Notes: generated by a model not told the origin, from the sequence alone. Positions 16,180 through 49,796 are shown, numbered from the stretch's first letter. The stretch: 64,000 nt of DNA from Sediminibacterium sp. FEMGT703S (GCA_002786355.1 PGCO01000001.1:310001-374000); one strand, 5' to 3'. A program made the numbers and translations.

Positions 16180-16220
16180 CGCAATAAAAATAGTTTTAAT
16201 TTTTTACATTCAAAATATTT

Positions 16221-16228: not shown

Positions 16229-16260
16229 TTTCTAATCGTACCAAATTCAAAAAAAAGGTT

Positions 16261-17187
16261 ATGAAAAAAGTTTTATATATACTTGTTCCAATATTGTTTT
16301 TTGTAATCATCTCTTATTTACTCCCTACCCAAAAACCTACCACTGAAACAATATCGGTTTCAATGCCGGTAGATGCAATAACTCGGGTAGTGACTAGTCA
16401 GAAAGATTGGGCTAAATGGTTCCCAGGAACTAAAGTGAATGACAGTGTATATACCTATTACGAATCGCCTATCACTATTCATAAGGTTTTGATGAATGGC
16501 TTTAAAGGAACCATGATTAATAAGGGTGTTGAAGTAGACCTTGACTTTTCTTTTGTTGCCGATCATAACGCCAAAACCAGTTTTACTTTAAACACTGTAA
16601 TGAAGATTACTTACAATCCTTTGTTGCGTTTTAAACAGTTTCTTTCTTTAAATTCTGTTGAAAATGATTGCAAAAGATTATTATATCAAATGCAAGATTA
16701 TTTTTCGGATGTTGAAAAAGTGTACGGCTTCCCGATTGAAATGCAAAAAGTTCCCAACTCATCGTATGTTTCAGCCAAACAAACCTATGATCATGAACCA
16801 ACTACTGATGAAATTTATGCATTGATAGATGAAGCGAATGAATTTATTGATGGTGTAGAAGTGAAAATTGTAAACTACCCCATTTTAAATGTATTTAAAG
16901 AAGATTCTACTTCTTACACTGCTATGGTTGCCGTTGCTACAGAAAGAGATATTCCTTCGAGTGGAAAATTTATGCTCAAGAATATGATGCTGGGAAATAT
17001 TGTGGTTTGTGAAGTAACCGGTGATAAAAACGTTATTAAACAGTGTAATGAAGCAGTAAAAAATTATGTTCAAGACCATCGTAAAACCAGCCCTGCTATT
17101 TCTTTTGAAAGATTAATTACCAATAGAAGAACCGTTCAGGATAGTACTAAATGGAGAACTACCATTAATTACCCTGTATTTCAATAA
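16261..17187 (+). CDS. SRPBCC/GyrI-like domain protein with N-terminal TM
   Basis: VSMPVDAITRVVTSQKDWAKWFPG-like SRPBCC start and C-terminal effector-binding (GyrI)-like repeat. Confidence 0.55.
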   Translation: MKKVLYILVPILFFVIISYLLPTQKPTTETISVSMPVDAITRVVTSQKDWAKWFPGTKVNDSVYTYYESPITIHKVLMNGFKGTMINKGVEVDLDFSFVADHNAKTSFTLNTVMKITYNPLLRFKQFLSLNSVENDCKRLLYQMQDYFSDVEKVYGFPIEMQKVPNSSYVSAKQTYDHEPTTDEIYALIDEANEFIDGVEVKIVNYPILNVFKEDSTSYTAMVAVATERDIPSSGKFMLKNMMLGNIVVCEVTGDKNVIKQCNEAVKNYVQDHRKTSPAISFERLITNRRTVQDSTKWRTTINYPVFQ

Positions 17188-23961: not shown

Positions 23962-25563
23962 TTAGTATCCGAAGTTTTGCTTTAAGTTAGGGTTAGAAGA
24001 CAATGGTATAGCAGGGATTGGATAAACCACTTTATACGCATCAGATGCATTTGGTCTTTCTTCAACAGGAGCATTGAATACACCAAAACGAATCATATCT
24101 GTTCTTCTGTGACCTTCTAAGTATAATTCACGACCTCTTTCAGCTAACAAAACTGGTAGAGTTACAGCAGAAAGAGCAGTTGCTCTACGCTTAGAACGTA
24201 AGTCGTTAACTATAGACAATGGAGTTTCACCGTTTGCACCAGTTGTACCACCTCTTAACAAAGCTTCAGCTTTCATTAAGCGAACATCAGAGAAACGGAA
24301 GAAAGGAAACTCATTCGCACTTCCCCAAGCACCATCATTAATAGTAGTTGGATCTAGAGGAAACTTATTCAAACGAATACCACTTGCTTCTCCGTTAAAG
24401 AAGATAGAAGCAGTACGAGTGAAAATCAATGGGTTACCAGAACGGTCTTTTAAGTCTACAATTGGATCACCAATTAATCCATTTCTTGGACCACGTGCTT
24501 GACCAACTAATAAACCAGCAGTTGCACCAGTAAACTCAGTGTGACCTCTTAAGGTATCGTTTCTACGAACGTCATTTCCTTCGAAGCTATCGTAGAACTG
24601 AGATAAGGTTACGAAACCATTCCAAGAAGAAGGAGTTTGGTTGTAGTGCCAGCTTTGAGAAGTCTGCCATCTTAAACCAGCACCGTTACCAGCTCTTGCA
24701 TCACCGCCCGCTTTACGAACGAAGATATTTTCTGAAGACGCGGTACCGTTGTCCCACTTAAAGTTATCCCAGTAGTAAGAATCAATTGACAAATTGGTAT
24801 TAGCTGCAATTAAATTACAGTATTCAATTACCTTATTCATATCTGCAGCAGCAAAAGTATAAGGACCAGCTGGTTTAGTTGGGTCTTGCTTATAAACAGC
24901 TTTGTTTAAATAAGCTTTCGCCAATAAAGCCCATGCAGCTTCTTTTGTAGCTTGTCCACGATTTGCACCGTTGTAAGCAGGAAGCGCAGGAACAGCAGCT
25001 TCTAATTCTGTGATAATTGCATCAATAGCAGCAGATCTTGTTAAAACATCAGGAACAACGTTAGCAGCAGCTGTTGCAGGTCTAGTTTGCACCTGACCAT
25101 AAATATCACATACTAAGAAACGGAAAAAAGAACGTAGGAACTGACCTTCTGCTTTTTCTAAACCAGTTTTGGTTTCTGCAGTTAGGGTTGTTTGGAACAA
25201 AGCTCCATTTAATCCATTCCAAGTATCGTTAATTTGGTTATGATCGGCAGCCCATGTATGTAGGTGTAAACGACGCCATGTACCAAAATCGTCCCAGTCG
25301 GTACCACGTGTTGGCCCCATGATTTCATCGGTGGAATGCTCTTGCAAACCAAACCAGTTACCCTGGCCACCGGTTAATTGGTTCAACTGCTCGTAAACAG
25401 CTGAGATAGAAGAAGCTGTAGGTACACCTCCCGCTTGAGTTGGAGCGATAGAGTTGGGTGCCTCCAACTTTGGATCAAGCTTGGAACAAGACGTGATCGT
25501 AAGTACACTTACCGCCGCAGCTGGTAAAATGTAACTTTTTAATAAATTTTTCATATTAATCAA
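23962..25563 (-). CDS. RagB/SusD family lipoprotein
   Basis: TITSCSKLDPKLEAPNS; NDLRSKRRA, LLAERGRELYLEGHRRTDMIRFG, YPIPAIPLSSNPNLKQNFGY C-terminus. Confidence 0.94.
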   Translation of the reverse strand: MINMKNLLKSYILPAAAVSVLTITSCSKLDPKLEAPNSIAPTQAGGVPTASSISAVYEQLNQLTGGQGNWFGLQEHSTDEIMGPTRGTDWDDFGTWRRLHLHTWAADHNQINDTWNGLNGALFQTTLTAETKTGLEKAEGQFLRSFFRFLVCDIYGQVQTRPATAAANVVPDVLTRSAAIDAIITELEAAVPALPAYNGANRGQATKEAAWALLAKAYLNKAVYKQDPTKPAGPYTFAAADMNKVIEYCNLIAANTNLSIDSYYWDNFKWDNGTASSENIFVRKAGGDARAGNGAGLRWQTSQSWHYNQTPSSWNGFVTLSQFYDSFEGNDVRRNDTLRGHTEFTGATAGLLVGQARGPRNGLIGDPIVDLKDRSGNPLIFTRTASIFFNGEASGIRLNKFPLDPTTINDGAWGSANEFPFFRFSDVRLMKAEALLRGGTTGANGETPLSIVNDLRSKRRATALSAVTLPVLLAERGRELYLEGHRRTDMIRFGVFNAPVEERPNASDAYKVVYPIPAIPLSSNPNLKQNFGY

Positions 25564-25580: not shown

Positions 25581-28500
25581 TTAAAAACCAATATTAACAC
25601 CTAAGGTAACCACTGTTGGTCTTGGGAATTGAGTATAATCAAATCCACGAGAAGGGATACCGTTGATGTTCTTATCTACGTTAACTTCTGGATCTATACC
25701 AGAATATTTGCTAAACAATGCCAAGTTTTGACCAGATGCAAATACTGATAACGTTTTGATAGCCTTACCCTTGATATCGAAAGCATAGCTTAAGTTCAAG
25801 TTAGCCAAGCGAACAAAATCTCCTGACTCTAAGAACCTAGTTGATACAGAACCTGGGTTAAATGGATTCTCAGGACCTTTTCCAACTTCATTCGTTACGT
25901 TACGAGCATTACGCAAACTTCCTTTTAAGAACAACGCATTCGCTGTATTGTTGTAAACATAATGACCAGTAACGGCATTTAAGAAAACACTCAAATTCCA
26001 TCTTCCATAAGAGAAGTTGTTGGTTAAACCAGCAAACATTTTAGGCAATGCAGTACCAACCAATTGGTTAGCAGCACCTGCAGCATAACGTGCATTACCG
26101 TTACCATCAAATCCTTGGAAAACCGGCATTGACCAAGTAAAGATTGGAGAACCATTGGTTAAAGTTTGTGCAAATGCACCAGTTAAACCTTGACCACTTA
26201 CTGCACCAGTATTAACTGGAGAAGGAAGACCAGTTACATTGTTTTCTACTGTTGTTAAATTAGCACTTACGTCCCAATTAAACTTGTTACCCTGAATGAT
26301 TTTATAGTTTAAGCTAAATTCCCATCCCTTGTTGGTAACATTACCTGGTAAGTTAATCCACCAGTTTGACTGTGGAGCAAATCCACCTGGAGTTGGAGCA
26401 AGAAACAACATATTGGTACGCTTAGCATTATAGTAATCAACGGTACCAGACAAACGACCGTTCTTAGTAGTGAAGTCTACACCAAAACCTGTAGTAGTAA
26501 CTTCTTCCCATTGAAGGTTTGGATTACCTTGTTGAATCACACGGCTTCTAGGACCAGCAGGGGTATTATTACCTACATCAAAAGTTTCTTGAAGGTTTAA
26601 TGCGGCATAGTTGGCTAAATTATCTTGGCTACCCAATTTACCATAGTTGGCTCTTACGTTGAATTCACTGAATAATTTACCTAAGGTATTTTTAGCCCAA
26701 GACTCTTCCATTACTCTCCATTTAAATGCAAAGGCAGGGAAAGTTCCGTAACGGTTGTTAGAACCAAACTTAGAAGATCCGTCAGTTCTTACTGTTGCGG
26801 TGAAGAAATACTTGTCGTTGTAAGTATAGTTTACACGAGCGAATACAGACTGTAATTCATTTCTTCCAAAACCAGGAAGGAAATTTGCATAATTTCTAAA
26901 TTGATTGAAATTTCTAGCAAATACATCGGTAGGCGCAACTACAGGTGTATTTAAGCCCCAGCCAAAGCTACCAGTATAACGGTTCTGAACACTTTGATAA
27001 GAATAACCTGCAACCGCATTGATTGCATGCACATTATTAAAAGTTTTATCAAAAGTCAAGTATTGTTCAAACAAAGTGTTATTAACTTCTTGATTTTGTT
27101 TAGTACCACGTCCATTTCCTTGAATTTGGTTTTGATAATCTCTACCAAACACGTTATTGGTTCCACCGTAGGCATTCGTACCCAAGCGAGGATCTGCAAA
27201 GCCTAAACGCTCAGAAGTAGCATTATCCAATCCAAGAACTGCCCTGTAAGAGAGGCTAGAAGTGATTTGATAAGTTGCAGATAAATTGGTCAAGAGCCTG
27301 TTTGTAACTTCTCTGTCGTCAAAATAAGCCAACATTTGCACAGGATTACGCTGATCGCCTGGTTGGAAGAATGATCCGTCTCTATTGTATACTGGATTTG
27401 TTGGATTCAATTGTAGAGCAGCACCTAACAAAGACCCTTGGAAACCTGCATTGTTAGACAATGGAGGAAATTGACTCTTTGTACTAGAATAAGTAATATT
27501 CGCTTCTAACTTCAATTTATCATTGAATAATTTTTGTCCTAAGTTAGCACGGGCAGTCAAACGCTGTAAGCTACTATTTCTGATGATACCTTGTTGGTCA
27601 TCATAAGAAGCACTTAAACGCGCAGTAGTTCCTTTGTTGCTGTAAGCCCAGCTCAGGTTATAATTCTGAGAAATCGCTTGACGGAAAATTTGGTCTTGCC
27701 AATCGGTGTTTGCACCATTGTCAATACCTTTAACCGCTTCACCCGCAGCAATTGGATCTGCACCACCATCAATGTTCGCTTTTTTAGCAGCCAACAAAAA
27801 GTCTTGTGCATTCATCAAGTCATAACGACGAGCGGTATTTGCGATACTAGTATTAGCCCCAAAATTAAATACCCCGGCTTTTCCACCTCTACCTTGTTTG
27901 GTAGTGATTAAGATTACACCATTTGCACCTCTTGAACCATAAATGGCAGCAGCAGATGCGTCTTTTAATATGGTAATGCTTTCAATATCATTGGGGTTTA
28001 AGAAAACTAGCGGATTTCTTGGAGTAGTACCCCCTTCAACACCACTACGAGATTCCATTGCACTTCCTTGACCCAAAGGAACTCCATCAATTACATACAA
28101 TGGTTCTTGTGCACCACTGATTGATCCAGTACCTCTGATATTGATGGTTGCAGCAGCGCCTGGTTCACCAGTAGAAGGAGTAACCAACACACCTGGAGTA
28201 CGGCCTTGCAACAACTGATCTGGAGAAGCAATTTGACCTTTGTTAAAGTCTTTCTCCGTAACACGCGCAACAGATCCTGTTACGTCTTTTGATTTTCTAG
28301 CACCATAACCAATTACCACAACATCAGTCAACGCATCAGCGGTTGATGTTAATTTGGCATCGGCAGTGTTAGATGCAGAAACATTCACTTCTAGATTACC
28401 AAAACCAGCGAATGAAATCACTAAGGTTTTTGTTGAAGAAGGAACAGTTAATTTGTAGGAACCATCTGCACCCGTTTGGGTACCTGTTGAAGTTCCTTTA

Positions 28501-28649
28501 GCTACTACAGAAGCACCAGAAAGCGGTGATCCGTCTTTTGAGTCAGTTACCTTTCCGGTAACTGTTTTCGTTTGCGCATGCGAGAAGATGGCAAACAGAC
28601 AAGCGAAGGCTCCCATCAATATGGGCCTGGCAAGCAGTCTTAGATTCAT
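25581..28649 (-). CDS. SusC/RagA family TonB-linked outer-membrane protein
   Basis: CarboxypepD_reg-like N-terminus (TVTGKVTDSKDGSPLSGASVVAKGT), plug DVVVIGYGARKSKDVTGSV, SIEILKDASAAAIYGSRGANGVILITTKQG-like signature. Confidence 0.95.
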   Translation of the reverse strand: MNLRLLARPILMGAFACLFAIFSHAQTKTVTGKVTDSKDGSPLSGASVVAKGTSTGTQTGADGSYKLTVPSSTKTLVISFAGFGNLEVNVSASNTADAKLTSTADALTDVVVIGYGARKSKDVTGSVARVTEKDFNKGQIASPDQLLQGRTPGVLVTPSTGEPGAAATINIRGTGSISGAQEPLYVIDGVPLGQGSAMESRSGVEGGTTPRNPLVFLNPNDIESITILKDASAAAIYGSRGANGVILITTKQGRGGKAGVFNFGANTSIANTARRYDLMNAQDFLLAAKKANIDGGADPIAAGEAVKGIDNGANTDWQDQIFRQAISQNYNLSWAYSNKGTTARLSASYDDQQGIIRNSSLQRLTARANLGQKLFNDKLKLEANITYSSTKSQFPPLSNNAGFQGSLLGAALQLNPTNPVYNRDGSFFQPGDQRNPVQMLAYFDDREVTNRLLTNLSATYQITSSLSYRAVLGLDNATSERLGFADPRLGTNAYGGTNNVFGRDYQNQIQGNGRGTKQNQEVNNTLFEQYLTFDKTFNNVHAINAVAGYSYQSVQNRYTGSFGWGLNTPVVAPTDVFARNFNQFRNYANFLPGFGRNELQSVFARVNYTYNDKYFFTATVRTDGSSKFGSNNRYGTFPAFAFKWRVMEESWAKNTLGKLFSEFNVRANYGKLGSQDNLANYAALNLQETFDVGNNTPAGPRSRVIQQGNPNLQWEEVTTTGFGVDFTTKNGRLSGTVDYYNAKRTNMLFLAPTPGGFAPQSNWWINLPGNVTNKGWEFSLNYKIIQGNKFNWDVSANLTTVENNVTGLPSPVNTGAVSGQGLTGAFAQTLTNGSPIFTWSMPVFQGFDGNGNARYAAGAANQLVGTALPKMFAGLTNNFSYGRWNLSVFLNAVTGHYVYNNTANALFLKGSLRNARNVTNEVGKGPENPFNPGSVSTRFLESGDFVRLANLNLSYAFDIKGKAIKTLSVFASGQNLALFSKYSGIDPEVNVDKNINGIPSRGFDYTQFPRPTVVTLGVNIGF

Positions 28650-35759: not shown

Positions 35760-38700
35760 TTATTGTTGAATATAATAAGTTAATTGTATGATTGATTCAT
35801 TTAAACTTCTAACTGCTTCGGTATAGTCATTTCTAACACTGGTTGCCTGATTAATTAATTGTACCCATTCTAAATAATTGATTAATCCTGCAGACAATTG
35901 CTTATTAGCAGTTTCTGTAATTAATTGGGCATTTTTTAATCCGGTTTTTTCTAGATACTGAACAGTTGTTAAGTATTTAGAAAACTGTGTTATAGTAGTT
36001 TGATATTCCGTAGTTAGTTGTTGCCTTACTTGTTGGTATTTTGCTTCCGCTAATTTTTCACTTAAAGAGGCACTATTGATCCGGGCTTTTTGCGCTTTAG
36101 TAAATAAAGGTATCCCCATTCCAAATTGGACTGTACTGAATCTTTTACCACTGTAAAATACATCGTCGGCACCTATTCCTCGAATACTTCCATTTAAATA
36201 GCCCAATGATAAATCTGGTAAGAGTTTACTTTTTTCTAACTCTGTACTAGCCATTGCTAATGATTGTTGTTGTAGCATGCTTTGTAAAATAGGATGATTG
36301 CTCAACTGGGCAGTGTCTAATAAAGCAGTTGGTGACAATGGTCCCCTACTAGTTTCTGGGATATAAGCCATCTTTGTATTTAACAAGAGTTGAAACTGTA
36401 GTTGCATCATAGAGGCATCTTGCGATAATTGCTGCAATTGCATTTGTATTTGTCCTAACAATGTTTCAGCACTTGTTTTTTCTAGAATATTAGATTCACC
36501 CGTTTTCAAACGTAAAGCTGCTTTTTGATAAAATGCTGAATACAAACTATCAGAAAAAAGTAGTAATTCCTTTTTCTTCTGCAAATACACCATGGCATAA
36601 TATACTTGTTGAACTTGCTTTTTCAATATGGCTTCTTGAATGGCAATATTTAATACACTGTTTTTATATTCAGCTTGCAATAAATCGCGCTCTCTTTTAT
36701 ACACCGTTGGAAAAGCAATGGATTGGCTAATCCCTAATCGGGTATCTGTATAAATACTATTGATTTGTCCAACCTCACCTACAAATGCAGTTTTTGGTAG
36801 ATTCCCAGCAGTACCTATGAGTATTTGTTGGTATTCTGCTTTTAACTGTTCATTCTTCACCAACAAATTATTTTTTAAAGCAGAGTCAACAGCTGCTTTA
36901 ACAGAAATAGGATGGGCATTATTGTTTTGTGCAATAGCAACAGAACCCATGAGTAAAAAACCCAACAAAATTGTTACTCCTTTATTGAAGGGTAAACTTG
37001 CATTAAATCCTTTTTCGAACATTATATATAATACAGGCAATACAAATAAGGTGAGCAATGTTGCAATCATTAAGCCGCCAATTACCACGGTAGCTAAAGG
37101 TCTTTGCACTTCTGCACCAGCTCCAATACTCAATGCCATTGGAAGGAATCCTAGTGAAGCCACAAAAGCGGTCATTAAAACAGGACGCAATCTCAAGCTT
37201 GTTCCAGTAAGTACAATCGTTCTTAAATTATCCATCCCATCATTTTTAAGTCTGTTGAATTCTGCAATTAATACAATACCATTTAATACGGCTACGCCAA
37301 ACAAAGCAATAAAACCCACTCCCGCACTAATACTGAAAGGCATATCTCTTAATGCCAAGAAAAAGATTCCTCCAATAGCAGATAAAGGAATAGCCGAATA
37401 AATAAGCAACCCATGCTTAATTGAATTGAATGCGAAATAAAGTAATAAAAATATCAGCAATAAAGACACTGGAACAGCTATCATCAATCTTGCTTTTGCC
37501 GCATTTAAATTTTCAAATGCGCCTCCATAAGTAATATAATAGCCCACTGGAAACTTAACCTGTTTTTCTATTTTTTGCTGTAACTCTTTTACAATGGTTT
37601 CTACATCTCTACCCCTCACATTAAAACCAATTACAATTCTGCGTTTGGCATCTTCTCTTTGAATTTGATTAGGACCATCTTTAATTTCAATAGTTGCCAA
37701 TTGAGAAAGCGGTACTTGTACACCTGATGGAGTTGGGATCAATAGTTGCTGAATATCTTTAAGGTCCTTTTTCATTTCGCCTTTTATACGAACCACTAAA
37801 TCGAATCGCTTCTCGCCTTCAAAAAGCAACCCACTGCTTTGACCGGCAAATGCTGCATTCACCACTTTATTAATGTCTTGCACATTTAAATTGTATTGTG
37901 CAATAGTGTTTCGATTGTACTCAATTAAAATTTGTGGCATGCCCGTGACTGCTTCTACATAAATACTTTTAGCACCTTCTACCGTACCTGCAATTTTACC
38001 AATGGTAGCAGCATATGCAGCCAGTGTATCTAAATTTTCACCAAAAATTTTGCATACTACATCCTGTCTTGCACCAGTCATTAATTCATTAAATCTCATT
38101 TGTACAGGAAATTGAAATCCAGTGGTGATTCCTGGAACAGCAGCCATTGTTGCACCCATTTTTTCGGCCAACTCATTAAATGTTTTAGCAGATGTCCATT
38201 GCTCTTTGGGTTTTAATATCACCATCAAATCACTAGCTTCCATTGGCATTGGATCGGTGGGTACTTCTCCACTTCCTATTTTAGTTACAATCTTTTCAAT
38301 CTCTGGATATTGTTTGAGTAAAAGCGAAGCTGCTTTTTGGGTACTTTCTACCGTTGTATTCAAATTACTACCCGTTAAAACCCTTGTATCTATTGCAAAA
38401 TCTCCTTCTTCTAATGCGGGGATGAATTCTCCTCCTAACCTGCTCAAAATGAATAAAGCAACAATAAATAAACTAATTACAAAACCGAGCACCAATTTGG
38501 GGAAGTGCAAAATATATTCCAATGCCCTTTTATAACTACTCTCTAATTTAGCCATTACACGATCCGACCAAGTTGGCTGATGGCTTATTTTTTTACTTAA
38601 AAATACAGCACTCATCATAGGGATATAAGTGAGCGAAAGAATAAATGCACCCAATAATGCAAAAGCAACTGTTTGTGCCATTGGCTTAAACATTTTACCC

Positions 38701-40118
38701 TCAATCCCCTGCAAAGTAAAAATAGGCAAGTAAACAACCAATATGATGATTTGCCCAAATACTGCACTATTCATCATTTTGCTAGCAGAATGGTTGACTT
38801 CTTTATCCATTTGACCCTGCGATAGTTTATTTACTACGCTAAACTTCTTGCTATGACTTAACTGATGCATGACTGCTTCAACTATAATCACTGCCCCATC
38901 TACAATTAATCCAAAATCGAGCGCTCCTAAACTCATTAGGTTTCCACTTACGCCAAACAAATTCATCATTATTATGGCAAACAACATGGCCAATGGGATA
39001 ACAGAAGCTACTATTAATCCTGCTCTTAGATTTCCTAAAAAAACAACTAATACAAAAACAACAATCAATGCACCTTCCATTAAATTTTTCTCTACTGTGC
39101 CAATGGCATTGTTCACCATTTTGGTTCTATCTAAAAATGGCTCAATCACCACTCCTTTAGGCAACGACTTTTGTATTTGAACAATTCGTTCTTTTACCTG
39201 CCTAATTACATCATTGCTATTGGCGCCCTTTAGCATCATTACAACAGCACCAGCAACTTCGCCTTGATCATTATAAGTCATTGCACCATACCTTGTAGCA
39301 TGACCAATTTTAACTTCAGCCACATCCCTTATAAATAAAGGAGTTCCTCCAGAAGTTCTTTTTATTGCGATGTTTTTAATGTCGTCTATATTGCCTAATA
39401 ATCCTTCTGTTCGGATGAATAAAACAGTAGGTCCTTTTTCAATATACGCTCCGCCTGTATTTTGATTATTTGTTTCGAGTGCTGTAAAAACATCTCCAAT
39501 AGAGATATTATAACTTAATAATTTAGAGGGATCTACTTCAACAGAATACTGTTTAAGCTTTCCACCAAAACTACTTACTTCGGCAACCCCCTTCACACCC
39601 AATAACTGTCTTCGCACTATCCAATCTTGCATGGTTCTTAGCTCGGTTACATCATATTGATTTTCGTAACCTTTTTCAGGCCTTACAACATATTGGTATA
39701 TTTCGCCTAAACCAGTGGAAACAGGCCCTAATTGAGGCGTTCCAATCCCCGAAGGAATTTGTGATTGAACTTGTAACAGTCGTTCTGCTACTTGTTGTCT
39801 TGCCCAATAAATATCGGTTTCATCATCAAACACAATAGTAACCAACGACAATCCAAATCGGGAGAAGCTTCTTATTTCTAATAAACCAGAAATATTATTA
39901 TTCGCTTGCTCAATTGGAAAAGTTACCAAACGTTCAATATCTGTTGCGCCAAAGGAAGGCGCTATGGTAATCACTTGAACCTGGTTATTCGTGATATCCG
40001 GAACAGCATCTATTGGAAGCTTGGTTAAATTATATGTTCCATAACCTAATAGGGCAATTACAAATAGCCCAACAATGAGTTTATTCCTTACGGAAAACTC
40101 AATAATTTTTGTAAGCAT
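35760..40118 (-). CDS. CusA/CzcA heavy-metal RND pump fused to C-terminal TolC-like outer-membrane factor domain
   Basis: MLTKIIEFSVRNKLIVGLFVIALLGYGTYNLTKLPIDAVPDITNNQVQVIT; RND core to about aa 1035, then ISVKAAVDSALKNNLLVKNEQLKAEYQQILIG... coiled-coil OEP domain in the same frame. Confidence 0.92.
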   Translation of the reverse strand: MLTKIIEFSVRNKLIVGLFVIALLGYGTYNLTKLPIDAVPDITNNQVQVITIAPSFGATDIERLVTFPIEQANNNISGLLEIRSFSRFGLSLVTIVFDDETDIYWARQQVAERLLQVQSQIPSGIGTPQLGPVSTGLGEIYQYVVRPEKGYENQYDVTELRTMQDWIVRRQLLGVKGVAEVSSFGGKLKQYSVEVDPSKLLSYNISIGDVFTALETNNQNTGGAYIEKGPTVLFIRTEGLLGNIDDIKNIAIKRTSGGTPLFIRDVAEVKIGHATRYGAMTYNDQGEVAGAVVMMLKGANSNDVIRQVKERIVQIQKSLPKGVVIEPFLDRTKMVNNAIGTVEKNLMEGALIVVFVLVVFLGNLRAGLIVASVIPLAMLFAIIMMNLFGVSGNLMSLGALDFGLIVDGAVIIVEAVMHQLSHSKKFSVVNKLSQGQMDKEVNHSASKMMNSAVFGQIIILVVYLPIFTLQGIEGKMFKPMAQTVAFALLGAFILSLTYIPMMSAVFLSKKISHQPTWSDRVMAKLESSYKRALEYILHFPKLVLGFVISLFIVALFILSRLGGEFIPALEEGDFAIDTRVLTGSNLNTTVESTQKAASLLLKQYPEIEKIVTKIGSGEVPTDPMPMEASDLMVILKPKEQWTSAKTFNELAEKMGATMAAVPGITTGFQFPVQMRFNELMTGARQDVVCKIFGENLDTLAAYAATIGKIAGTVEGAKSIYVEAVTGMPQILIEYNRNTIAQYNLNVQDINKVVNAAFAGQSSGLLFEGEKRFDLVVRIKGEMKKDLKDIQQLLIPTPSGVQVPLSQLATIEIKDGPNQIQREDAKRRIVIGFNVRGRDVETIVKELQQKIEKQVKFPVGYYITYGGAFENLNAAKARLMIAVPVSLLLIFLLLYFAFNSIKHGLLIYSAIPLSAIGGIFFLALRDMPFSISAGVGFIALFGVAVLNGIVLIAEFNRLKNDGMDNLRTIVLTGTSLRLRPVLMTAFVASLGFLPMALSIGAGAEVQRPLATVVIGGLMIATLLTLFVLPVLYIMFEKGFNASLPFNKGVTILLGFLLMGSVAIAQNNNAHPISVKAAVDSALKNNLLVKNEQLKAEYQQILIGTAGNLPKTAFVGEVGQINSIYTDTRLGISQSIAFPTVYKRERDLLQAEYKNSVLNIAIQEAILKKQVQQVYYAMVYLQKKKELLLFSDSLYSAFYQKAALRLKTGESNILEKTSAETLLGQIQMQLQQLSQDASMMQLQFQLLLNTKMAYIPETSRGPLSPTALLDTAQLSNHPILQSMLQQQSLAMASTELEKSKLLPDLSLGYLNGSIRGIGADDVFYSGKRFSTVQFGMGIPLFTKAQKARINSASLSEKLAEAKYQQVRQQLTTEYQTTITQFSKYLTTVQYLEKTGLKNAQLITETANKQLSAGLINYLEWVQLINQATSVRNDYTEAVRSLNESIIQLTYYIQQ

Positions 40119-40715: not shown

Positions 40716-42044
40716 TTAATTCAGCTCCAATTGTACTATTGTATTTACTTGATCTTGTTTTATATTCTTTAAATAGAGGAACACACCTTCGTCAACTTGT
40801 TTGAAAGAAATATTCGTTTTCGTTGAAAATAAATTTGCCCATTTTACTTTGCCAGCTGTATAGGGAACAAAAATATAATCGGCATTTACTTGTTTAAGTA
40901 TATGTACAAATATACTTTTCTCTTTTGCAGTTACTACTCCCCATTCTTGGGTTGGAATAATATTCCCTCTGGTTCCTTGTATAGTAGCTGCATACAGTTT
41001 CATCCAGTTTCCCAACTGTTTTAACGTATCAATATTTTCAGTCTGAATTTTACCATTAGGCATTGGGCCTACATTCAATAAGAAATTAGTATTCAATGAA
41101 GCAGCTTTCACTAAATAATGTACTAAGTCATTAACAGACTTATGCGCATGATCTGTTATATTATAACCCCAGGAATTATTCATGGTCTCACAGGTTTCTA
41201 ATGGCAATTGATCGGAAGGTTTCTGAAAACTCAATCCAGTATGATTTTGACCAGGCAAATCCTTTTCGAACATCTGAAAGTCTTCTCCTGGCAATGGATC
41301 TAAGTGATGATTGTTTCCAATTAAACAGGCAGGTTGCAATTGATGAATTAATTCATAAATTTCGTTGTACTTCCAATTAATTCTTGAGCTTCTATCTAGT
41401 GAACCTTCTGGGTTGGTTTGATCCCAATGACCATCAAACCAAATAGACATAATTGTTCCATAATTGGTTAAAAGTTCAGTAAGCTGCGCTTTCATGAACT
41501 TCAAGTAAGAAGCATAGTCACCTCCTGTCTTTCTTCCAGTTCCTTGTCCTGTGCGTCCTGTTGAATAAGGGTAATCTTCTCTAAACCAATCTAATGTAGA
41601 ATAATATAACCCCAATTGCATTCCTTGTTTCTTACACTCTTCAGCCAATTGCTTTAACGCATCTTTCCCATAAGGGGTTTTGGTGATTTTCCAATCACTT
41701 TGTTGTGTATCCCAATTTGAAAAACCATCATGATGTCTGGTAATAAAAACAATATATTTCATACCAGCCGATTTTGCGGCAGCTACCCATTCTGCCGCAT
41801 TAAATTGTGAGGGATAAAATGTTTCTTTTAGCAGTACATAATCTTTTACTTTGATATTGCGATTCTGCATGACCCATTCTCCTGCTCCCAACATACTAGA
41901 CACCCCCCAATGAACAAATAGTCCAAAACGATTGTCTTCAAACTGTTTGCGTGCAAGTAAATTTTCTGTAGTAGGTTGATAGGGTTGACCAAGCATTTGA
42001 GTACTCAGTAATAAAAGAAAAAAGAAAATAAATATCCTATTCAT
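40716..42044 (-). CDS. Alpha-L-fucosidase (GH29)
   Basis: FGLFVHWGVSSMLGAGEWVMQ, FITRHHDGFSNWDT, IMSIWFDGHWDQ. Start set at MNRIFIFFFLLLL (signal peptide) rather than the track start at 42071. Confidence 0.92.
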   Translation of the reverse strand: MNRIFIFFFLLLLSTQMLGQPYQPTTENLLARKQFEDNRFGLFVHWGVSSMLGAGEWVMQNRNIKVKDYVLLKETFYPSQFNAAEWVAAAKSAGMKYIVFITRHHDGFSNWDTQQSDWKITKTPYGKDALKQLAEECKKQGMQLGLYYSTLDWFREDYPYSTGRTGQGTGRKTGGDYASYLKFMKAQLTELLTNYGTIMSIWFDGHWDQTNPEGSLDRSSRINWKYNEIYELIHQLQPACLIGNNHHLDPLPGEDFQMFEKDLPGQNHTGLSFQKPSDQLPLETCETMNNSWGYNITDHAHKSVNDLVHYLVKAASLNTNFLLNVGPMPNGKIQTENIDTLKQLGNWMKLYAATIQGTRGNIIPTQEWGVVTAKEKSIFVHILKQVNADYIFVPYTAGKVKWANLFSTKTNISFKQVDEGVFLYLKNIKQDQVNTIVQLELN

Positions 42045-43080
42045 AAAAAATATTTTTAAAATCCATTTCATACTCCGTTAACCGCTCTAATAAAACCGTT
42101 TGATTAATTGCCCTAACTAAATTATGATTACTATAAAGTATTTGGTAGTATTTATCGCTATTGAAATAATCCGTTAAAAAACGGATGGCTTGCATATAAA
42201 TCATGAACTGCCCAGCATAAAAAAAATGTTCTTTCTCAATAGGAGTTAATTCTCCACGCATTTCTTTTGAATATCCTTGAACAATTGCATGATAAAAGGA
42301 CGGACGTATATTGATCTTATTAATATCAGCTTCATTTTCAGAAACAGGACATAAATAAGTTCGCATCATATCTCCCACATCACTAAAAAAATATCCCGGC
42401 ATTAAAGTATCAAGATCAATTACACAAACAGCTTTGTTTGCTCCATCAAATAGCACATTACTAATTTTAGTATCATGGTGGATGACCCTTTTTTTAAAGG
42501 CAGCATTTTGGGTAATTTCTTCAAATTGCTTTACTAAAAAATCAAATTTATATAGTCGCGCAATCAGTGCTTTTTCTGCATGTACTCTCTCAGGATCACC
42601 ATTGTTGATAGCATCTAGAAATTGTTGATGCCTGTAACTTAAATCATGGAAATGGGGTATGGTGATCTTTAATTGGGACACATTAAAGTTTTTCAACTTA
42701 GCTGTAAACCGACCAAATTGTGTTGAAGCTTCTAATGCTTGATTAGCTGTTTCAACTACTTCTATCGTATGGGTTCCTTCAATAAAAGGGAATAGCCGAT
42801 AATACCCTTCTCCTGGCATATGAACCAGCTCAGTTCCACCCAAAGAAAGAATTGGAGCAGGAAATAAATAATCTGGATTATGCTTTTTTAGATATCCCGC
42901 AACTGCCGAAATATTATGATGTATATTTTCGGGGCTAGCAAAAACATGGTCATTAATTCGCTGGAAAATATAGTCTGCTGTTCCAGATTTTACTTTCCAA
43001 GTACTGTTGATAATTCCACTTGATATTTGTGTTAAATCTGCATTCGCATTTAATCCAAATGCACTTAAAACATTCATCAT
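42037..43080 (-). CDS. Phosphotransferase, N-acetylhexosamine 1-kinase (NahK)-like
   Basis: APH fold: TDYIFQRINDHVF-like N-lobe, VIHHDTKISNVLFDGANKAVCVIDLDTLMPGYFFSDVGDMMRT. Confidence 0.75.
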   Translation of the reverse strand: MMNVLSAFGLNANADLTQISSGIINSTWKVKSGTADYIFQRINDHVFASPENIHHNISAVAGYLKKHNPDYLFPAPILSLGGTELVHMPGEGYYRLFPFIEGTHTIEVVETANQALEASTQFGRFTAKLKNFNVSQLKITIPHFHDLSYRHQQFLDAINNGDPERVHAEKALIARLYKFDFLVKQFEEITQNAAFKKRVIHHDTKISNVLFDGANKAVCVIDLDTLMPGYFFSDVGDMMRTYLCPVSENEADINKINIRPSFYHAIVQGYSKEMRGELTPIEKEHFFYAGQFMIYMQAIRFLTDYFNSDKYYQILYSNHNLVRAINQTVLLERLTEYEMDFKNIFYE

Positions 43081-44432
43081 TAATATTGATCATTTAATGC
43101 AAACACTGGTTTGCGATACATCCATTGCCCACCGGTGAAATCTGGGAATTCAACGGTTTGATTCCCTAATTCAATCGACAGTTCACTCAGTGGTGTAATT
43201 GCACTCCAAGCTGCTGCATCATACACATCCATCGGTGTTGGAGTTTGATTTTTAATAGACTCTATAAAAGCATGAATCACAAAAAAGTCCATTCCGCCGT
43301 GCCCTGCCCCTGCTGTTTCTTTACTCCATCTTACCCATAATGGATGGTCATATTTATCAAACCATTCTTTCTGAGATTCCCACTGATGCGGTTTAGCTGA
43401 TTTACCTTCTATGTAAACAGATTTATTTAAATCCATCCAAATACCTTCAGTGCCCTGAACCCTAAATCCTAATGAATATGGCCTTGGCAAATTGGTGTCG
43501 TGTTGCAATAGAATAGTTTCCCCATTATTACAATCAATAGAAGTAGTTACCACATCCCCCAACTTAAATTTCACTTTTGCATTGGGGTGATTAGGGCCAC
43601 CTTTTTTCACAATATAATCGTTTAGACCTTTTGCCTTTGAAGAAAAAGAGCACAACGATAAAAACCGATTTCCTCTATTGATATTGATATAATGCGCAAT
43701 AGGACCAATGCCATGTGTTGGATATAAATCTCCGTCTCTATATACTGAATGTGTAGTTCTCCAAGCAGCTTCTGAAAATCCTTTTTCACCAAACTCAACC
43801 CCTCCACCGTATGGACGCACCCCATCATTAAACTTCACTTCTCTTAAATCGTGTTGGTATCCTCCTTGTAAATGAATGATTTCACCAAATAATCCCTGAC
43901 GCACCATATTTAATGCAGCCATCACGTCTCTTCGGTAACATACATTTTCGAGCATCATTACTTGCCCCTTATATTGTTCAGCAGCCTTTACTACATCCCA
44001 ATGGTCTTGGAGCGTTATTCCCAATATCACTTCAGTAGCAACATATTTGATTCCTGACTGCAAAGATTCAATGATCATTTCTTTATGGAGTTCCCAAGGA
44101 GTTGCAATGACGACTCCGTCGGGTTTTTCTTTTACAATCATTTCCTTCCAAGCCTGATTGTTTCCAGTGTAAATTTTGGGCATTTTTTTTCCAGCCTTGT
44201 CTATCATTGCTTTAGCAGTAGAAAGCATTTTATCATTGATATCGCAAATACCGGTTAAGTCTACATCGTCTCTACGTAATAGAAGATCTAAGTGGTTTTG
44301 ACCGCGAAGACCAGTACCAATAAGTACAATTTTTACTTTACTAGCATTGTTCTTTGCCATTAACATAGATGAAGACAGCATGAAGGCACCGGATGCCATT
44401 GCTGATTTTTGAATAAAATTCTTTCGATTCAT
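43080..44432 (-). CDS. Gfo/Idh/MocA-fold NAD-dependent glycosidase, GH109-like
   Basis: Tat-like leader (MNRKNFIQKSAMASGAFMLSSS), IGTGLRGQNHLDLLLRRDDVDLTGICD, MMLENVCYRRDVMAALNMVRQGLFGEIIHLQGGYQHDLR. Confidence 0.82.
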   Translation of the reverse strand: MNRKNFIQKSAMASGAFMLSSSMLMAKNNASKVKIVLIGTGLRGQNHLDLLLRRDDVDLTGICDINDKMLSTAKAMIDKAGKKMPKIYTGNNQAWKEMIVKEKPDGVVIATPWELHKEMIIESLQSGIKYVATEVILGITLQDHWDVVKAAEQYKGQVMMLENVCYRRDVMAALNMVRQGLFGEIIHLQGGYQHDLREVKFNDGVRPYGGGVEFGEKGFSEAAWRTTHSVYRDGDLYPTHGIGPIAHYININRGNRFLSLCSFSSKAKGLNDYIVKKGGPNHPNAKVKFKLGDVVTTSIDCNNGETILLQHDTNLPRPYSLGFRVQGTEGIWMDLNKSVYIEGKSAKPHQWESQKEWFDKYDHPLWVRWSKETAGAGHGGMDFFVIHAFIESIKNQTPTPMDVYDAAAWSAITPLSELSIELGNQTVEFPDFTGGQWMYRKPVFALNDQY

Positions 44433-44496: not shown

Positions 44497-44931
44497 TTAT
44501 CTAGCCGTACTTTCCCACTCAGCGTAAGAATCACTGGTTTCATAAATCTTTAATTTTCTTAATCTGATTTCCGTTGGCAACTCAGCTAACAAAACATTTC
44601 TAATATAAAGCAATATATTTTCCGCTGTGGGTTCCATCTCCCAGATAATTAAATTTTCTGATGCAGCCGCATGTGGATGTTCTGCTAAAAAATCCTGAGA
44701 TAAAATTAATCGATGATCAAGTTCATCTACTATGATTCGATTCACTATTTTTTTGAGGTCTTTAAAGTCTATCACAAAACCCGGCTTTGGTAAATAAGCC
44801 ATATCATCTGCATCCGAACCAACTGTTACATGTAATACGTATGAATGACCATGTATATTTCTACAATGACCATTATAGCCATGAATGGCATGCGCTGTTT
44901 CGAATCTAAATATTTTAGTTACCTGAATCAT
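44497..44931 (-). CDS. queD: 6-carboxytetrahydropterin synthase family (QueD-like)
   Basis: RFETAHAIHGYNGHCRNIHGHSYVLHVTV, FVIDFKDLKKIVN, ELDHRLIL, PTAENI. Start at MIQVTKIFRF preferred over the 45021 track start. Confidence 0.88.
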   Translation of the reverse strand: MIQVTKIFRFETAHAIHGYNGHCRNIHGHSYVLHVTVGSDADDMAYLPKPGFVIDFKDLKKIVNRIIVDELDHRLILSQDFLAEHPHAAASENLIIWEMEPTAENILLYIRNVLLAELPTEIRLRKLKIYETSDSYAEWESTAR

Positions 44932-46240
44932 GGGGCAAAAATACATTATTATAGTAACTCCCAATTTCCCTTCCTTGTTTTTGGCCGTTTTCAACTGCTG
45001 CACGATAGTGTATTCCTCCATACATCCTACTCATACTTACCTCATTTGCAGCTGCTTCAATTGAGGGAAATGATCTTTTCATCCCAAGGTATTTCAACTC
45101 TGTCGTATCTGTAAATGGAGTATTGTTTCCAAAAACAGTTGATAGTACCGTTGCTGCGGCGGCGGATATTACACTATGCCCACTTGTATATTCAGGGAAC
45201 GGTGGTGTTTGCAAATAAGGATTCCATTCAGACGCTAAATACTCTCTAATAACAGTAACTGGTCTAACTGTTTTACTGGTAAATTTTTCTTCCCAAGTAG
45301 ATATAAATCCATCGAAAATAGCCATTGATGCTAGTGCAAAAGCCCTAGCTGTTTCTAACTCATCCTTTTTTGTTTGATTAGATAAAATAGCTATAATCCC
45401 CATCCAATGCCCTACAGGAGTTGTCTTTTTGGTGGCATAGGTTAAATGACCTTTATGTTCAGATACAAAGGGATTATCATCCCAGTATCGGGCAATCATT
45501 TTTTGTTCATCTGTTAATGCATTACTCATCGCAAAAAGCTCTTGCACTTCTTTATAATAAGGACTATTGGGCTGCATTGAAAAAGAGGGTGGGCGTGCTG
45601 GCTTAAATTGTGCTGCAGAATCTAAAAGCATCGGTTGAATATACCGCCAATTCGGCTCAATTGCTTCTTCATAATCAGGTGGGGTTTGTTGCCAAATTCC
45701 AGTTTCCTTTAGGACGCTAAATTTAGGCATCCCCCTAGTAATTTTATAGCCATCTTTTGAAGCACGTTCTAATATGGTAGCAGCCACTTTTTCTCCCCAA
45801 TTGATGGATGCTGTTTGAATAGCTGCATCTAAGTACGCATAGTTTTCTAGTAAAACAGCCCTGCTTTTCTTGATGCTGTCCTTTGAAAAAACCAAGGCTT
45901 CTGCTACTTTCATGAATGCAATACTTGCAGAAAAAGGGTAATCAATTTTGATATTTTTTTCTGATTGTGGCAAACTTGAAAAGCCTTTTAATTTAGGCAA
46001 GAAACTTTTGTAAGCGGGCTTCATCGGTCTGATTGCTTCATAAAAAGCCAAATTACTATACGCATACATTCTTCCTGCAACTGGTGGATTATTGATATCA
46101 TATACAATCACATCAGTTAATTGCTGAACACAATAATTTTGGAGTTCAGCTCCTGCATATTTTTTTATTGGTTTGCTTTTACAACCAATTATAATTAACG
46201 CAATCAGCAGTAGTTTTCCATATTTAAAAAATTGAATCAT
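44915..46240 (-). CDS. PAP2 / vanadium-dependent haloperoxidase-like lipoprotein
   Basis: MIQFFKYGKLLLIALIIIGCKSK lipobox; KFTSKTVRP, EYTSGHSVISAAAA, SRMYGGIHYRAA. Internal Met start preferred (4 nt after the VCBS stop). Confidence 0.85.
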   Translation of the reverse strand: MIQFFKYGKLLLIALIIIGCKSKPIKKYAGAELQNYCVQQLTDVIVYDINNPPVAGRMYAYSNLAFYEAIRPMKPAYKSFLPKLKGFSSLPQSEKNIKIDYPFSASIAFMKVAEALVFSKDSIKKSRAVLLENYAYLDAAIQTASINWGEKVAATILERASKDGYKITRGMPKFSVLKETGIWQQTPPDYEEAIEPNWRYIQPMLLDSAAQFKPARPPSFSMQPNSPYYKEVQELFAMSNALTDEQKMIARYWDDNPFVSEHKGHLTYATKKTTPVGHWMGIIAILSNQTKKDELETARAFALASMAIFDGFISTWEEKFTSKTVRPVTVIREYLASEWNPYLQTPPFPEYTSGHSVISAAAATVLSTVFGNNTPFTDTTELKYLGMKRSFPSIEAAANEVSMSRMYGGIHYRAAVENGQKQGREIGSYYNNVFLPHDSGN

Positions 46241-46244
46241 GCTA

Positions 46245-49200
46245 CTATCGTTTGATTGTTCTTGATTTTTTACTGCCAACAAAAATATCGATACTGGTTA
46301 TACCCGGATGAAGCATTGCATATCTTGTAGATTGTGATAAAAAGCCTTGACCATAGGGATACTCTTCTTTTCGCTTGGTACCATTGCTAAAAAATATAAT
46401 CGCGTGCGTTTCTTCATCTGCAATTTTAACTGGCACTGAATTACTATTTGCAATCTGAAATAATTTCAAAAAATCTCTATTTTGACCTGCAACTACTGCG
46501 GGTTGGCCATTTACAATTAATGAAGTTAATGACCTGCCACTTGCTGGAGTATAAAACCCACTTTGAGCAATTGACAATGAACTAAACTGTCCTTTCCCTT
46601 TATTCAACAGTACCAATCCATTTAGAGCATCTTGTCTTCCTAAATAAGGCGACATAGCATATTCATTACCAGTAAAAATCAGGTCAACTAAACCATCATT
46701 ATTAATATCCTTAGGTAATATTCCAAATATGGGCGCGAATTGGACAGTCGCTGGTAATTCATGTATTTCAAAATTAAAATTTCCTTTATTTTCTATCCAG
46801 CTCGATTTTAAATAATTTGCTTTTGCCGTATAAGCATCTTTCATTTGCTCTGGTGTAAATAATTGCCCTATATCCGTTTTTGCATAGCTCGCATAATTTG
46901 GAAATCTTTCTTTCATTATACTCATCTCGCGCAATAGTAAATCTCTCCCTGCTAAAGGAAATTCTTTTTTAATTCCACCCGTTTGATCTTGAATCCAATG
47001 ACTAAATATTACATCTAAGCTAAAATTATTGTCAAAGTCTTTTGCGTATACACTCAATGGTTCCTCATTAGAAGCATGCAAGAAAGAATTGGTTCCAAAA
47101 TTGCCTGCTACATAATCCATGTCTCCATCGTTATCTACATCGGTAGATACGATACTATTCCACCAACCTTTAAAACTGTCTAATGGGGTTTTAACTCTAG
47201 CCAACTTTGCTCCATCATTTTTGAATACATCAATACTCCCCCATTCTTTCGTAATCAATAAATCCATCTTTCCATCAGCATCTGCATCAGACCATACTGC
47301 GGCAGTTACCATTCCCATATTTAATAATTCTGGGGCTACTTTACTGGTTACGTCTGTAAATTGTACTTTGCCCTTTTGTGAATTATTTTGATAAATAAAA
47401 CTACTGGTGGGTATAGGATATCTACCGGGTATTACCCTGCCGCCTATAAATAAGTCAAGGTCTCCATCTAAATCATAATCTGCAGCAATAACAGCACTTT
47501 TAGTTACCCTATTATTGGTAAAATCAGCTACTAATTCCGAAAAATTTCCTTTTCCATCATTCAAATAAAAATGGTCGGTATATGCTTTTGTTTGTGGCTG
47601 ATTTTCTGCACCTCCAGACACAATAAATAAATCTAAATCGCCATCCTTATCTGCATCCAACAAAATAATCCCTGCATCGTCTTGTAATTGTGGGCTATTA
47701 TTTCCTGGTAAAAACTTGCGTACAAATTTTCCATTGGGTGCTTGAAAAAAGATAGATGCATGAAAAGGAGAACCTCCACCTGAAACAATATCATCTAATC
47801 CATCCCCATTTAAATCGCCTGTTGCTAATGATGGTCCATATTGGGTTAGCTTATGTAATAAAAGTCTTTGAATATCAAAATCAATAAAATCAACTTCTGA
47901 AAACCCATAAGTAATCCCTGCATTTTTTGTAATTTCTGTCATTAGCGACTGTATGCCAACAGGCGTTTGTAATCCCCCAAGAGCTAACCCATTTGAATAA
48001 CTAATCACTAATTGCTGATTAGCTTGAACATTTGTTTTGAGGGAAGTTTTTCCATCGGGCCAAACTACTCTAATTGAATCAACAGAAGTTTGCTTGCCAA
48101 TACCAAAATGAATGGCTTGTTCAACACTTGAAAGATACCCGCGATAGGGCGAATGCTCTATTACTTGGTGTATGCCATTCGTATAGATATGTACCCAAGC
48201 GCCTAAGGCCAATTTATTTTTAGCATCACCGCTTAATAATATCCGTAAATAGTTGTCGTGCTCTTTTTGCTGTTGTTGGGTATTTTCTAATAAAGTAGCT
48301 GGCATATTGGTATTATTGATTACCAAATCCAAATCGCCATCTTTATCTAAATCGGCATAAGCCACCCCCGCAGAAAAACTAGGACTATTGATTCCCCAGT
48401 CTTTTGATTGATCAATAAATCGTAAATCTCCATTGTTCTTGTATGCATAGTTGGTGACCTTAACTTCTGGTAACTGCCTAAGTACCTCTTCTAAAGGAGC
48501 ATTGGCAACTGCATTTTGTCGGTAAGCCATGAAGTCTTTATCGGACATATCTTTGGGCAAGCCATTGGTTACAAACAAGTCTCTAAACCCATCATTATCC
48601 ATATCCATTAAAAGTGGTGCCCAACTCCAATCTGTATGGGCCACTCCGCTGAAATAGGCTATTTCACTAAATGCAGGTCTACTGATAGAATCATAACCAT
48701 TAGGAAGGAAACCTTGGTTTAATTGGAGTGTATTGCGTGGATACTGATACATATATCCATATCGATCACTATTTTGAAATGTTTGATAACTAATATCGGA
48801 GTGCATCATTTTTTGCCGATAATTATCCGCAGGCATCATATCTGTTTCAATAATATCTGCTAATCCATCATTATTAATATCGGCAATATCATTGCCCATT
48901 GCATTCTTACTGGTATGCTTAAAGTAGCTCGCAGCTTGATCGGTAAATGTTCCATTTTTATTATTAATATAAAGCACATTATTAGATAGATAATCATTGC
49001 TCACATAAATGTCTTTGTATCCATCTTGGTTGATATCTGCAATGCTTATCCCCAGTCCATGGCCTTCTATCAAGATTCCTGCTTGTTGGGAAACATCTTT
49101 AAATACTGGATGTCCTAAAGCTGAATCAAAATTATTTTGTAATAGCTTATCTGTATTTGGCCAGCTTCCATCTTTTCTGATAGGCCTAAATTCATTGGGG

Positions 49201-49796
49201 TAAGTTCCATCTAAATCATTGATTAAAAGATACACATCTAAATCCTGATCATTATCGTAATCAAAGAAAGCAGCCATATGTGTATTAGAGGCATCGGCTA
49301 ATCCATATTCTGCAGCAAGATCTTTAAAAATTGGCGCACCCGTTTCTTTGCTTACTCCCTGATTAACGTAAAGTATATTTTTTCTTTTATTGCTGTCTGT
49401 CAATACGGCTGCACATACATAAATATCCAATAGTCCATCATTATTAATATCAATGATGCTTGCCCCTTTGCTCCATTTGCCATTTCCGTCAACGCCTGCT
49501 TTATCTGTAACATCTTCGAAAGTTAAATTTCCTTTATTTAAAAATAGCTTATTTGGAACCCGATTCCCTGTAAAATAGACATCAGGTAAACTATCGTTAT
49601 TGAAATCGCCAATACCTACACCGCCTCCATTATAAATGTATTCGTAGTTTAATACATTTAACTCTTCGTTTTCTACAATAGTATTGGAAAAAACTAATCC
49701 AGATTGTTCTGGTTTAATTTCTTTGAACAATGGGTTCTTTTGATTACAAGATGCAAAAGAGAATAATATAAAAAGAAAGAATATATATGCCTTCAT
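46245..49796 (-). CDS. VCBS/FG-GAP repeat lipoprotein with ASPIC/UnbV domain
   Basis: Lipobox SFASC; DFNNDSLPDVYF, DINNDGLLDIYV, DYDNDQDLDVYL...; ASPIC-like NKLALGAWVHIYTNG...IRVVWPDGK. Confidence 0.9.
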   Translation of the reverse strand: MKAYIFFLFILFSFASCNQKNPLFKEIKPEQSGLVFSNTIVENEELNVLNYEYIYNGGGVGIGDFNNDSLPDVYFTGNRVPNKLFLNKGNLTFEDVTDKAGVDGNGKWSKGASIIDINNDGLLDIYVCAAVLTDSNKRKNILYVNQGVSKETGAPIFKDLAAEYGLADASNTHMAAFFDYDNDQDLDVYLLINDLDGTYPNEFRPIRKDGSWPNTDKLLQNNFDSALGHPVFKDVSQQAGILIEGHGLGISIADINQDGYKDIYVSNDYLSNNVLYINNKNGTFTDQAASYFKHTSKNAMGNDIADINNDGLADIIETDMMPADNYRQKMMHSDISYQTFQNSDRYGYMYQYPRNTLQLNQGFLPNGYDSISRPAFSEIAYFSGVAHTDWSWAPLLMDMDNDGFRDLFVTNGLPKDMSDKDFMAYRQNAVANAPLEEVLRQLPEVKVTNYAYKNNGDLRFIDQSKDWGINSPSFSAGVAYADLDKDGDLDLVINNTNMPATLLENTQQQQKEHDNYLRILLSGDAKNKLALGAWVHIYTNGIHQVIEHSPYRGYLSSVEQAIHFGIGKQTSVDSIRVVWPDGKTSLKTNVQANQQLVISYSNGLALGGLQTPVGIQSLMTEITKNAGITYGFSEVDFIDFDIQRLLLHKLTQYGPSLATGDLNGDGLDDIVSGGGSPFHASIFFQAPNGKFVRKFLPGNNSPQLQDDAGIILLDADKDGDLDLFIVSGGAENQPQTKAYTDHFYLNDGKGNFSELVADFTNNRVTKSAVIAADYDLDGDLDLFIGGRVIPGRYPIPTSSFIYQNNSQKGKVQFTDVTSKVAPELLNMGMVTAAVWSDADADGKMDLLITKEWGSIDVFKNDGAKLARVKTPLDSFKGWWNSIVSTDVDNDGDMDYVAGNFGTNSFLHASNEEPLSVYAKDFDNNFSLDVIFSHWIQDQTGGIKKEFPLAGRDLLLREMSIMKERFPNYASYAKTDIGQLFTPEQMKDAYTAKANYLKSSWIENKGNFNFEIHELPATVQFAPIFGILPKDINNDGLVDLIFTGNEYAMSPYLGRQDALNGLVLLNKGKGQFSSLSIAQSGFYTPASGRSLTSLIVNGQPAVVAGQNRDFLKLFQIANSNSVPVKIADEETHAIIFFSNGTKRKEEYPYGQGFLSQSTRYAMLHPGITSIDIFVGSKKSRTIKR

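Follow-up and report, generated by a model that had tools for sequence, protein, structure and literature searches.

VCBS/ASPIC propeller and vanadium iodoperoxidase-family lipoproteins form a conserved gene module, usually within SusC/SusD uptake loci

Within a 64,000-nt stretch (310001-374000; hereafter the window) of the 3.22-Mb genome of the Bacteroidota member Sediminibacterium sp. FEMGT703S, a gene for a double beta-propeller VCBS/ASPIC lipoprotein (VCBSa) is followed almost at once by a gene for a lipoprotein of the vanadium iodoperoxidase (VIPO) family (VIPOa). Our comparisons revealed that this pair represents a VCBS-VIPO module that is conserved, lies usually inside SusC/SusD (SusCD) uptake loci and often stands beside glycosidases. 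The module is recorded in its gene order, in the conservation of that order, in the co-variation of VIPO with the adjacent VCBS, in the VIPO fold and in an intact vanadate site. The evidence for the module itself is good; its chemistry we only infer. The proteins in question are the following.

46245-49796, minus strand: VCBSa, FG-GAP/UnbV_ASPIC (CRTAC1-like) double beta-propeller lipoprotein, 1183 aa (Pfam FG-GAP_3 6e-62, UnbV_ASPIC 1e-20)
44915-46240, minus strand: VIPOa, vanadium iodoperoxidase-family lipoprotein, 441 aa (phmmer against 4cit 2e-115)
20566-23883, minus strand: VCBSb, FG-GAP/UnbV_ASPIC lipoprotein after SusCD, 1105 aa (Pfam FG-GAP_3 and UnbV_ASPIC)
17222-20560, minus strand: VCBSc, FG-GAP/UnbV_ASPIC lipoprotein, 1112 aa (Pfam FG-GAP_3 and UnbV_ASPIC)
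14249-15577, minus strand: VIPOb, VIPO-family lipoprotein with Cys357 replacing the active-site Ser (phmmer against 4cit 3.5e-112; residue map)
11721-13265, minus strand: PAP2c, PAP2 lipoprotein with an acid-phosphatase-type H-x3-D motif (D489), 514 aa (Pfam PAP2 5e-21)

An earlier note on this DNA had described a VCBS/ASPIC lipoprotein gene with a PAP2-like lipoprotein gene 4 nt further on, and our open reading frame (ORF) and Pfam analyses agree once the VIPOa start is corrected: the listed ORF (44915-46282) opens at a TTG at 46282, the signal-peptide start is the ATG at 46240, and from there the distance to the VCBSa stop is 4 nt (TAG TAGC ATG). The note had also assigned lipobox signal peptides to all six proteins, as the N-terminal sequences confirm (FASC in VCBSa, and IIGC, ALSC, LVSC, LISC and VVGC in the others). 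Its count of three members of each family held in part: the three UnbV_ASPIC genes are real and are the only ones in the whole genome, all within the window, but the PAP2-like trio is not equivalent, since two belong to the VIPO family and the protein encoded at 11721 is longer and carries a phosphatase motif. The remaining PAP2 sites of the genome lie outside these loci, in short frames. Scanning for promoters and terminators gave motif counts near or under those of shuffled sequence.

By sequence and predicted structure, VIPOa is a relative of the crystallised iodoperoxidase VIPO1 (4cit/4usz) and not a generic PAP2 phosphatase. The phmmer match to 4cit (E = 2.3e-115) covers residues 17-432, and all seven vanadate-site residues are kept in the residue map (K319, R326, S353, G354, H355, R405 and H411). 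The AlphaFold2 model of VIPOa (pLDDT 86.4) has the VHPO helical-bundle fold and matches 4usz in Foldseek with an E value of 1e-31 and TM scores of 0.86 (query-normalised) and 0.91 (target-normalised), against a query-normalised TM of only ~0.3 for acid phosphatases. Generic lipid phosphatase was rejected as the best label for VIPOa because the sequence search returned no phosphatase and the fold is far nearer VIPO. The Asp of the H-x3-D motif of class A acid phosphatases is absent from VIPOa (Ala415) and VIPOb (Ser419) and present in PAP2c (Asp489). Across a wider set of 163 VIPOs, the Lys, first Arg and first His of the vanadate site do not vary, and every readable sequence has the second Arg and the axial His; the lipobox Cys20 is invariant in a 23-row VIPO alignment.

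These data also bear on the possibility that VIPO-family proteins are phosphatases or other phosphoester hydrolases, acting with PAP2c on phosphorylated glycans. The shared PAP2 fold and common catalytic residues, the H-x3-D of PAP2c as in acid phosphatases and the trapped-phosphate structure of apo-vanadium chloroperoxidase (3bb0) would all be compatible with such an activity. The proximity of VIPOa to the iodoperoxidase in both sequence and fold speaks against it, as does the occurrence of the phosphatase Asp in merely 9 of the 163 VIPOs, and we consider it very unlikely. For VIPOa, homology and modelling favour oxidative (VIPO) over phosphate-ester chemistry.

The association of VIPO with VCBS genes was evaluated in relatives, whose genes were longest-ORF calls labelled by home-made hidden Markov models; short or frameshifted genes are missed in the relatives because of this calling. 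The clearest control came from 16 named genomes, where 47 of 60 VIPO genes had an ASPIC gene within 10 kb, compared with 1 of 75 short PAP2 genes of the ordinary kind (Fisher 4e-23, a p-value that overstates independence because the samples share phylogeny). Over 101 genomes, our own and its relatives, at least 63 of 106 VIPO sites have an ASPIC domain no more than 12 kb away, and at least 36 are adjacent to one. Among 80 named loci, ranked by similarity to VIPOa, a VCBS gene is found within 10 kb in 53 of the 63 having full flanks and directly upstream on the same strand in 51 of 76. A phylum-wide sample, made of every second match, gave VCBS within 10 kb in 45 of 60 VIPO loci, directly upstream in 34, and Sus and VCBS genes together in 29. 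The gap from VCBS stop to VIPO has a median of 4 nt and is 60 nt or less in 50 of 52 cases, and the adjacency is spread across the whole VIPO tree, covering Bacteroidota and one Gemmatimonadota metagenome-assembled genome. Both families are multi-copy in Bacteroidota, and clustering by chance or mere family abundance had to be considered; we rejected this explanation, whose probability appears negligible, because ordinary PAP2 genes of the same genomes are found near ASPIC in 1 of 75 cases versus 47 of 60 for VIPO, and the three ASPIC genes of the present genome are all here. The suggestion of the earlier note that the genes form a functional module is thus supported by a massively enriched, operon-like adjacency spread over the VIPO family; the enrichment analysis it had proposed, run here against ordinary PAP2 genes, found clustering in excess of family abundance and did not refute the module.

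The two partners also vary together. VIPO distances correlate with those of the adjacent VCBS at r = 0.84 (maximum of 2000 null permutations, 0.21), a value that species phylogeny inflates through partial confounding. In 21 loci with two VCBS genes, the VIPO correlation is 0.78 with the adjacent copy versus 0.51 with the second, and this contrast within operons provides a fair internal control.

The crystallised enzyme itself comes from such a setting. The PDB entry of 4cit, the enzyme of Zobellia galactanivorans, names the molecule as the 'first bacterial vanadium dependant iodoperoxidase', and a Flavobacteriaceae genome encodes a protein 99% identical to it. Like VIPOa, its gene (locus L259) lies behind VCBS lipoprotein genes, here three, as the fourth in a VCBS-VCBS-VCBS-VIPO1-GyrI-like run with gaps of ~10 nt or less. 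VIPOa and Zobellia VIPO1 share family, fold, the vanadate residues K/R/S/G/H/R/H and an Ala at the phosphatase-Asp position; they differ in lineage and are 42% identical over the fold alignment. In Flavobacteriaceae, VCBS is directly upstream of VIPO in 18 of 20 loci. Near the VIPO operons of this family, an HD + PycTM protein (Pycsar effector-like) recurs (e.g. L148:16809-18083) and is probably a fixed neighbour.

In the window, SusC and SusD genes stand immediately upstream of VCBSb and VCBSc, and glycan-related genes surround the VCBSa-VIPOa pair.

25581-28649, minus strand: SusC-type TonB-dependent transporter (Plug, CarbopepD_reg_2, TonB_dep_Rec)
23962-25563, minus strand: SusD-type lipoprotein (SusD_RagB 5e-20)
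44497-44964, minus strand: 6-pyruvoyl-tetrahydropterin synthase (PTPS)/QueD-like gene (PTPS 3.6e-29), its start overlapping the VIPOa end; same order in genomes G011 and G017
43080-44432, minus strand: GH109-type Gfo/Idh glycosidase (Glyco_hydro_109_C 7e-92), syntenic in G011 and G017
42037-43080, minus strand: putative APH-family sugar kinase, N-acetylhexosamine kinase-like (APH 3e-21), the specificity suggested by context
40716-42071, minus strand: alpha-L-fucosidase, GH29 (Alpha_L_fucos 6e-95)

The last four follow VIPOa in this order with small gaps, and genes for a sulfatase, an FGE-like protein and a galactokinase lie upstream of the pair. Two marks of a SusCD polysaccharide utilization locus, adjacent SusC/SusD genes and linked glycan-degrading genes, are thus found in the window. 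The order SusC-SusD-VCBSb-VCBSc is kept in congeners, and in congener G010, as in the named loci L119 and L127, the block of SusC/SusD and VCBSb/VCBSc, a GyrI-like gene, VIPOa-VCBSa, GH65, the small protein and VIPOb are united in one locus; genome G059, whose contig begins inside the locus, has the same arrangement over the part VCBSb to PAP2c. Other loci place SusC-SusD immediately before VCBSa-VIPOa, followed either by GMC oxidoreductases, GH30 and GH3 or by GH20. Up to 4 kb from VIPO and on its strand, the genes met most often match GH65, GyrI-like, trehalase, sodium:solute symporter (SSF), GH30 and PfkB, which is not so more than 7 kb away. Conversely, when 20 ASPIC loci of VIPO-carrying genomes were sampled, Sus genes were present in 19 and VIPO in 10. 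The SusC/SusD genes belong to the VCBS-VIPO system; the earlier note had overlooked this, as it had the glycosidases and the Zobellia context. The module resembles SusC/SusD polysaccharide utilization loci in that SusC-SusD is followed by surface-type lipoproteins with glycosidases near; it differs in that VCBS/ASPIC proteins and an enzyme of the haloperoxidase family, rather than SusE/SusF-type binders, serve as its accessory lipoproteins, and in that the VCBS-VIPO pair occurs without SusCD too. In another lineage of the phylum (L239, L243, L246 and L247) the pair lacks an adjacent SusD, and in L246 it adjoins LptG-like and PaaA-like genes. In a fucose/GH125 locus, a gene of the AhpC/TSA family and one whose product weakly matches Cu2-monooxygenase (L215:4024-5923) lie between SusD and VCBS-VIPO; genes of a length similar to this insert precede VCBS in L225 and L230.

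FG-GAP_3 and UnbV_ASPIC exceed their curated cut-offs in all three VCBS proteins. AlphaFold2 models VCBSa (pLDDT 88.5) as a nearly all-beta, multi-propeller chain whose best PDB fold match, murine CRTAC1 (9etn; target-normalised TM 0.73), spans about half of it and is also its sole solved sequence relative. FG-GAP repeats and the ASPIC domain are common to both, whereas the bacterial proteins reach ~1100-1200 aa, possess a second propeller half and are lipoproteins in SusCD operons. Because no catalytic feature is apparent in the modelled protein, we infer that the VCBS partner would bind or scaffold.

Taken together, we propose an envelope module in which VCBS propellers bind or scaffold a substrate and VIPO performs peroxide/halide chemistry beside it, usually within a SusCD locus, a proposal to which we give an even chance of being correct. 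The module comprises one to three double-propeller VCBS/ASPIC lipoproteins with a VIPO lipoprotein translationally close behind, usually built into a SusC/SusD locus, and the window holds two surviving blocks of it, SusC-SusD-VCBSb-VCBSc with VIPOb and PAP2c near, and VCBSa-VIPOa followed by glycan-degrading genes. Both lipoproteins would have their anchor in the outer membrane, close to the SusCD transporter, where the propellers may hold the incoming substrate and VIPO would use vanadate and H2O2 to oxidise a halide, probably iodide. The reactive species might then modify the captured substrate, or peroxide from substrate use might be cleared. In a bolder form, which we consider doubtful, SusC, SusD, VCBS and VIPO would make up a single outer-membrane complex, hypohalite generated at the transporter mouth would alter bound substrate before import, and bacterial iodoperoxidases, that of Zobellia among them, would have their physiological role in this process.

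Among the rival explanations, we rank detoxification or antagonism first, iodine capture second and phosphatase activity third. In the first, VIPO would be protective or antagonistic, removing H2O2 or directing hypohalite against competitors, quorum signals or the oxidative burst of a host, and would merely be co-regulated with the uptake of surface polymers. On the alga Ascophyllum, Zobellia induces another of its VIPOs, vIPO3, and algal degradation includes oxidative-stress responses (PMC9296495). These observations fit a protective role, as do the AhpC/TSA-family gene and weak Cu2-monooxygenase match within the L215 run, but the near-fixed order behind VCBS and the tighter co-variation with the adjacent VCBS are left unexplained, and we judge this role unlikely. 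Alternatively, VIPO could turn extracellular iodide into HOI/I2 for easier entry or binding, with VCBS and SusCD serving iodine or organo-iodine acquisition. Zg-VIPO1 is named an iodoperoxidase and its gene lies in the module, and iodine uptake in a marine Flavobacteriaceae strain reportedly depends on H2O2; the module is, however, common in freshwater and soil genera, and iodine capture would not account for the glycosidases and trehalases beside it, which makes it in our view quite unlikely.

Several observations weigh against the proposed envelope module. About one quarter of VIPO loci lack VCBS, and the mirror-tree correlation carries the phylogenetic inflation given above. In the window, the VCBSa-VIPOa pair has no adjoining SusCD, though congeners have SusCD there, and SusCD was not found within the 20 kb read around VIPO1 of Zobellia. 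Surface export is without sequence support because the residues following the lipobox are Lys-rich, with an acidic fraction of 0.16-0.17 versus 0.32 for SusD of the same loci. No H2O2 source is consistently linked to VIPO, GMC oxidoreductases being present in only 5 of the 80 named loci. Finally, a single dedicated glycan substrate was rejected because the neighbouring glycosidases and associated enzymes vary widely (GH29/GH109/sulfatase, GH3/GH30/GMC, GH20, GH125, GH65 and GH37).

Each component is known by itself, be it vanadium iodoperoxidases, ASPIC/FG-GAP proteins or SusCD loci; in the open-licence PMC literature we found neither their union nor any paper linking VCBS/ASPIC to haloperoxidases or SusD. 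The purpose of bacterial vanadium iodoperoxidases is not settled, and the VCBS/SusCD setting supplies a concrete physiological context that is testable in manipulable organisms such as Zobellia, Dyadobacter and Spirosoma. It likewise offers a functional handle on UnbV_ASPIC/VCBS lipoproteins, nearly all of which adjoin SusCD in the sampled VIPO-carrying genomes. If the oxidative reading were true, nutrient uptake by these bacteria would include halogen chemistry that accounts of aquatic carbon and iodine cycling have left out.

The second PAP2-like region of the window, around VIPOb and PAP2c, includes three further genes.

13255-14214, minus strand: conserved protein of predicted outer-membrane type, encoded between VIPOb and PAP2c; position kept in relatives, no Pfam match
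15625-16179, minus strand: small conserved protein upstream of VIPOb, 184 aa; position kept in the genus, no Pfam match
16261-17187, plus strand: GyrI-like protein with an N-terminal hydrophobic segment (PF06445 2e-4)

Pfam PAP2 scores above cut-off in VIPOa and PAP2c, and in VIPOb both PAP2 and VCPO_2nd are under cut-off. The vanadate site of VIPOb is incomplete, with C357 in place of Ser, a substitution that possibly entails altered chemistry. This Cys in the SGH motif recurs in the VIPOb orthologues of congeners and, in the wider set, in only 4 of the 163 VIPOs. PAP2c matches 4cit (1e-17) as well as acid phosphatases and looks, from its motifs, nearer the acid phosphatase type than VIPOa or VIPOb. 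With class A acid phosphatases (PhoN/PhoC) it has in common K-x6-RP, SGH and R-x5-H-x3-D along with sequence matches to PhoC/PhoN, whereas it is about twice as long, a lipoprotein and VHPO-like in its N-terminal half (the 4cit match); it may be a VHPO/phosphatase intermediate. PAP2c adjoins MFS, PfkB and GH13 genes (7420-11715). The product of 16261-17187 is remotely homologous to the GyrI-like protein encoded downstream of VIPO in Flavobacteriaceae (hhalign probability 94.5%). At the equivalent of 16179-16261, several congeners carry a GH65 gene (e.g. L081:11625-13655) that is present neither there nor elsewhere in our 3.22-Mb genome, and a move of GH65 to another site of this genome was accordingly rejected.

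Fusions of VCBS and VHPO were considered and rejected as well, as the long VHPO-similar frames of L111-L115 belong to a distinct class that has DUF6851 and, for the most part, type IX secretion system (T9SS) sorting domains. Among these large VHPO-related proteins (L112:6204-10118, L113:2214-5162, L114:6536-9436 and L115:6964-9660), most of which have T9SS tails, those of L113-L115 contain MopE-type Cu-binding motifs. Elsewhere in the window, at 35760-40118, an AcrB/CusA-type RND pump and an outer-membrane efflux (OEP) domain are encoded in a single 1452-aa frame.

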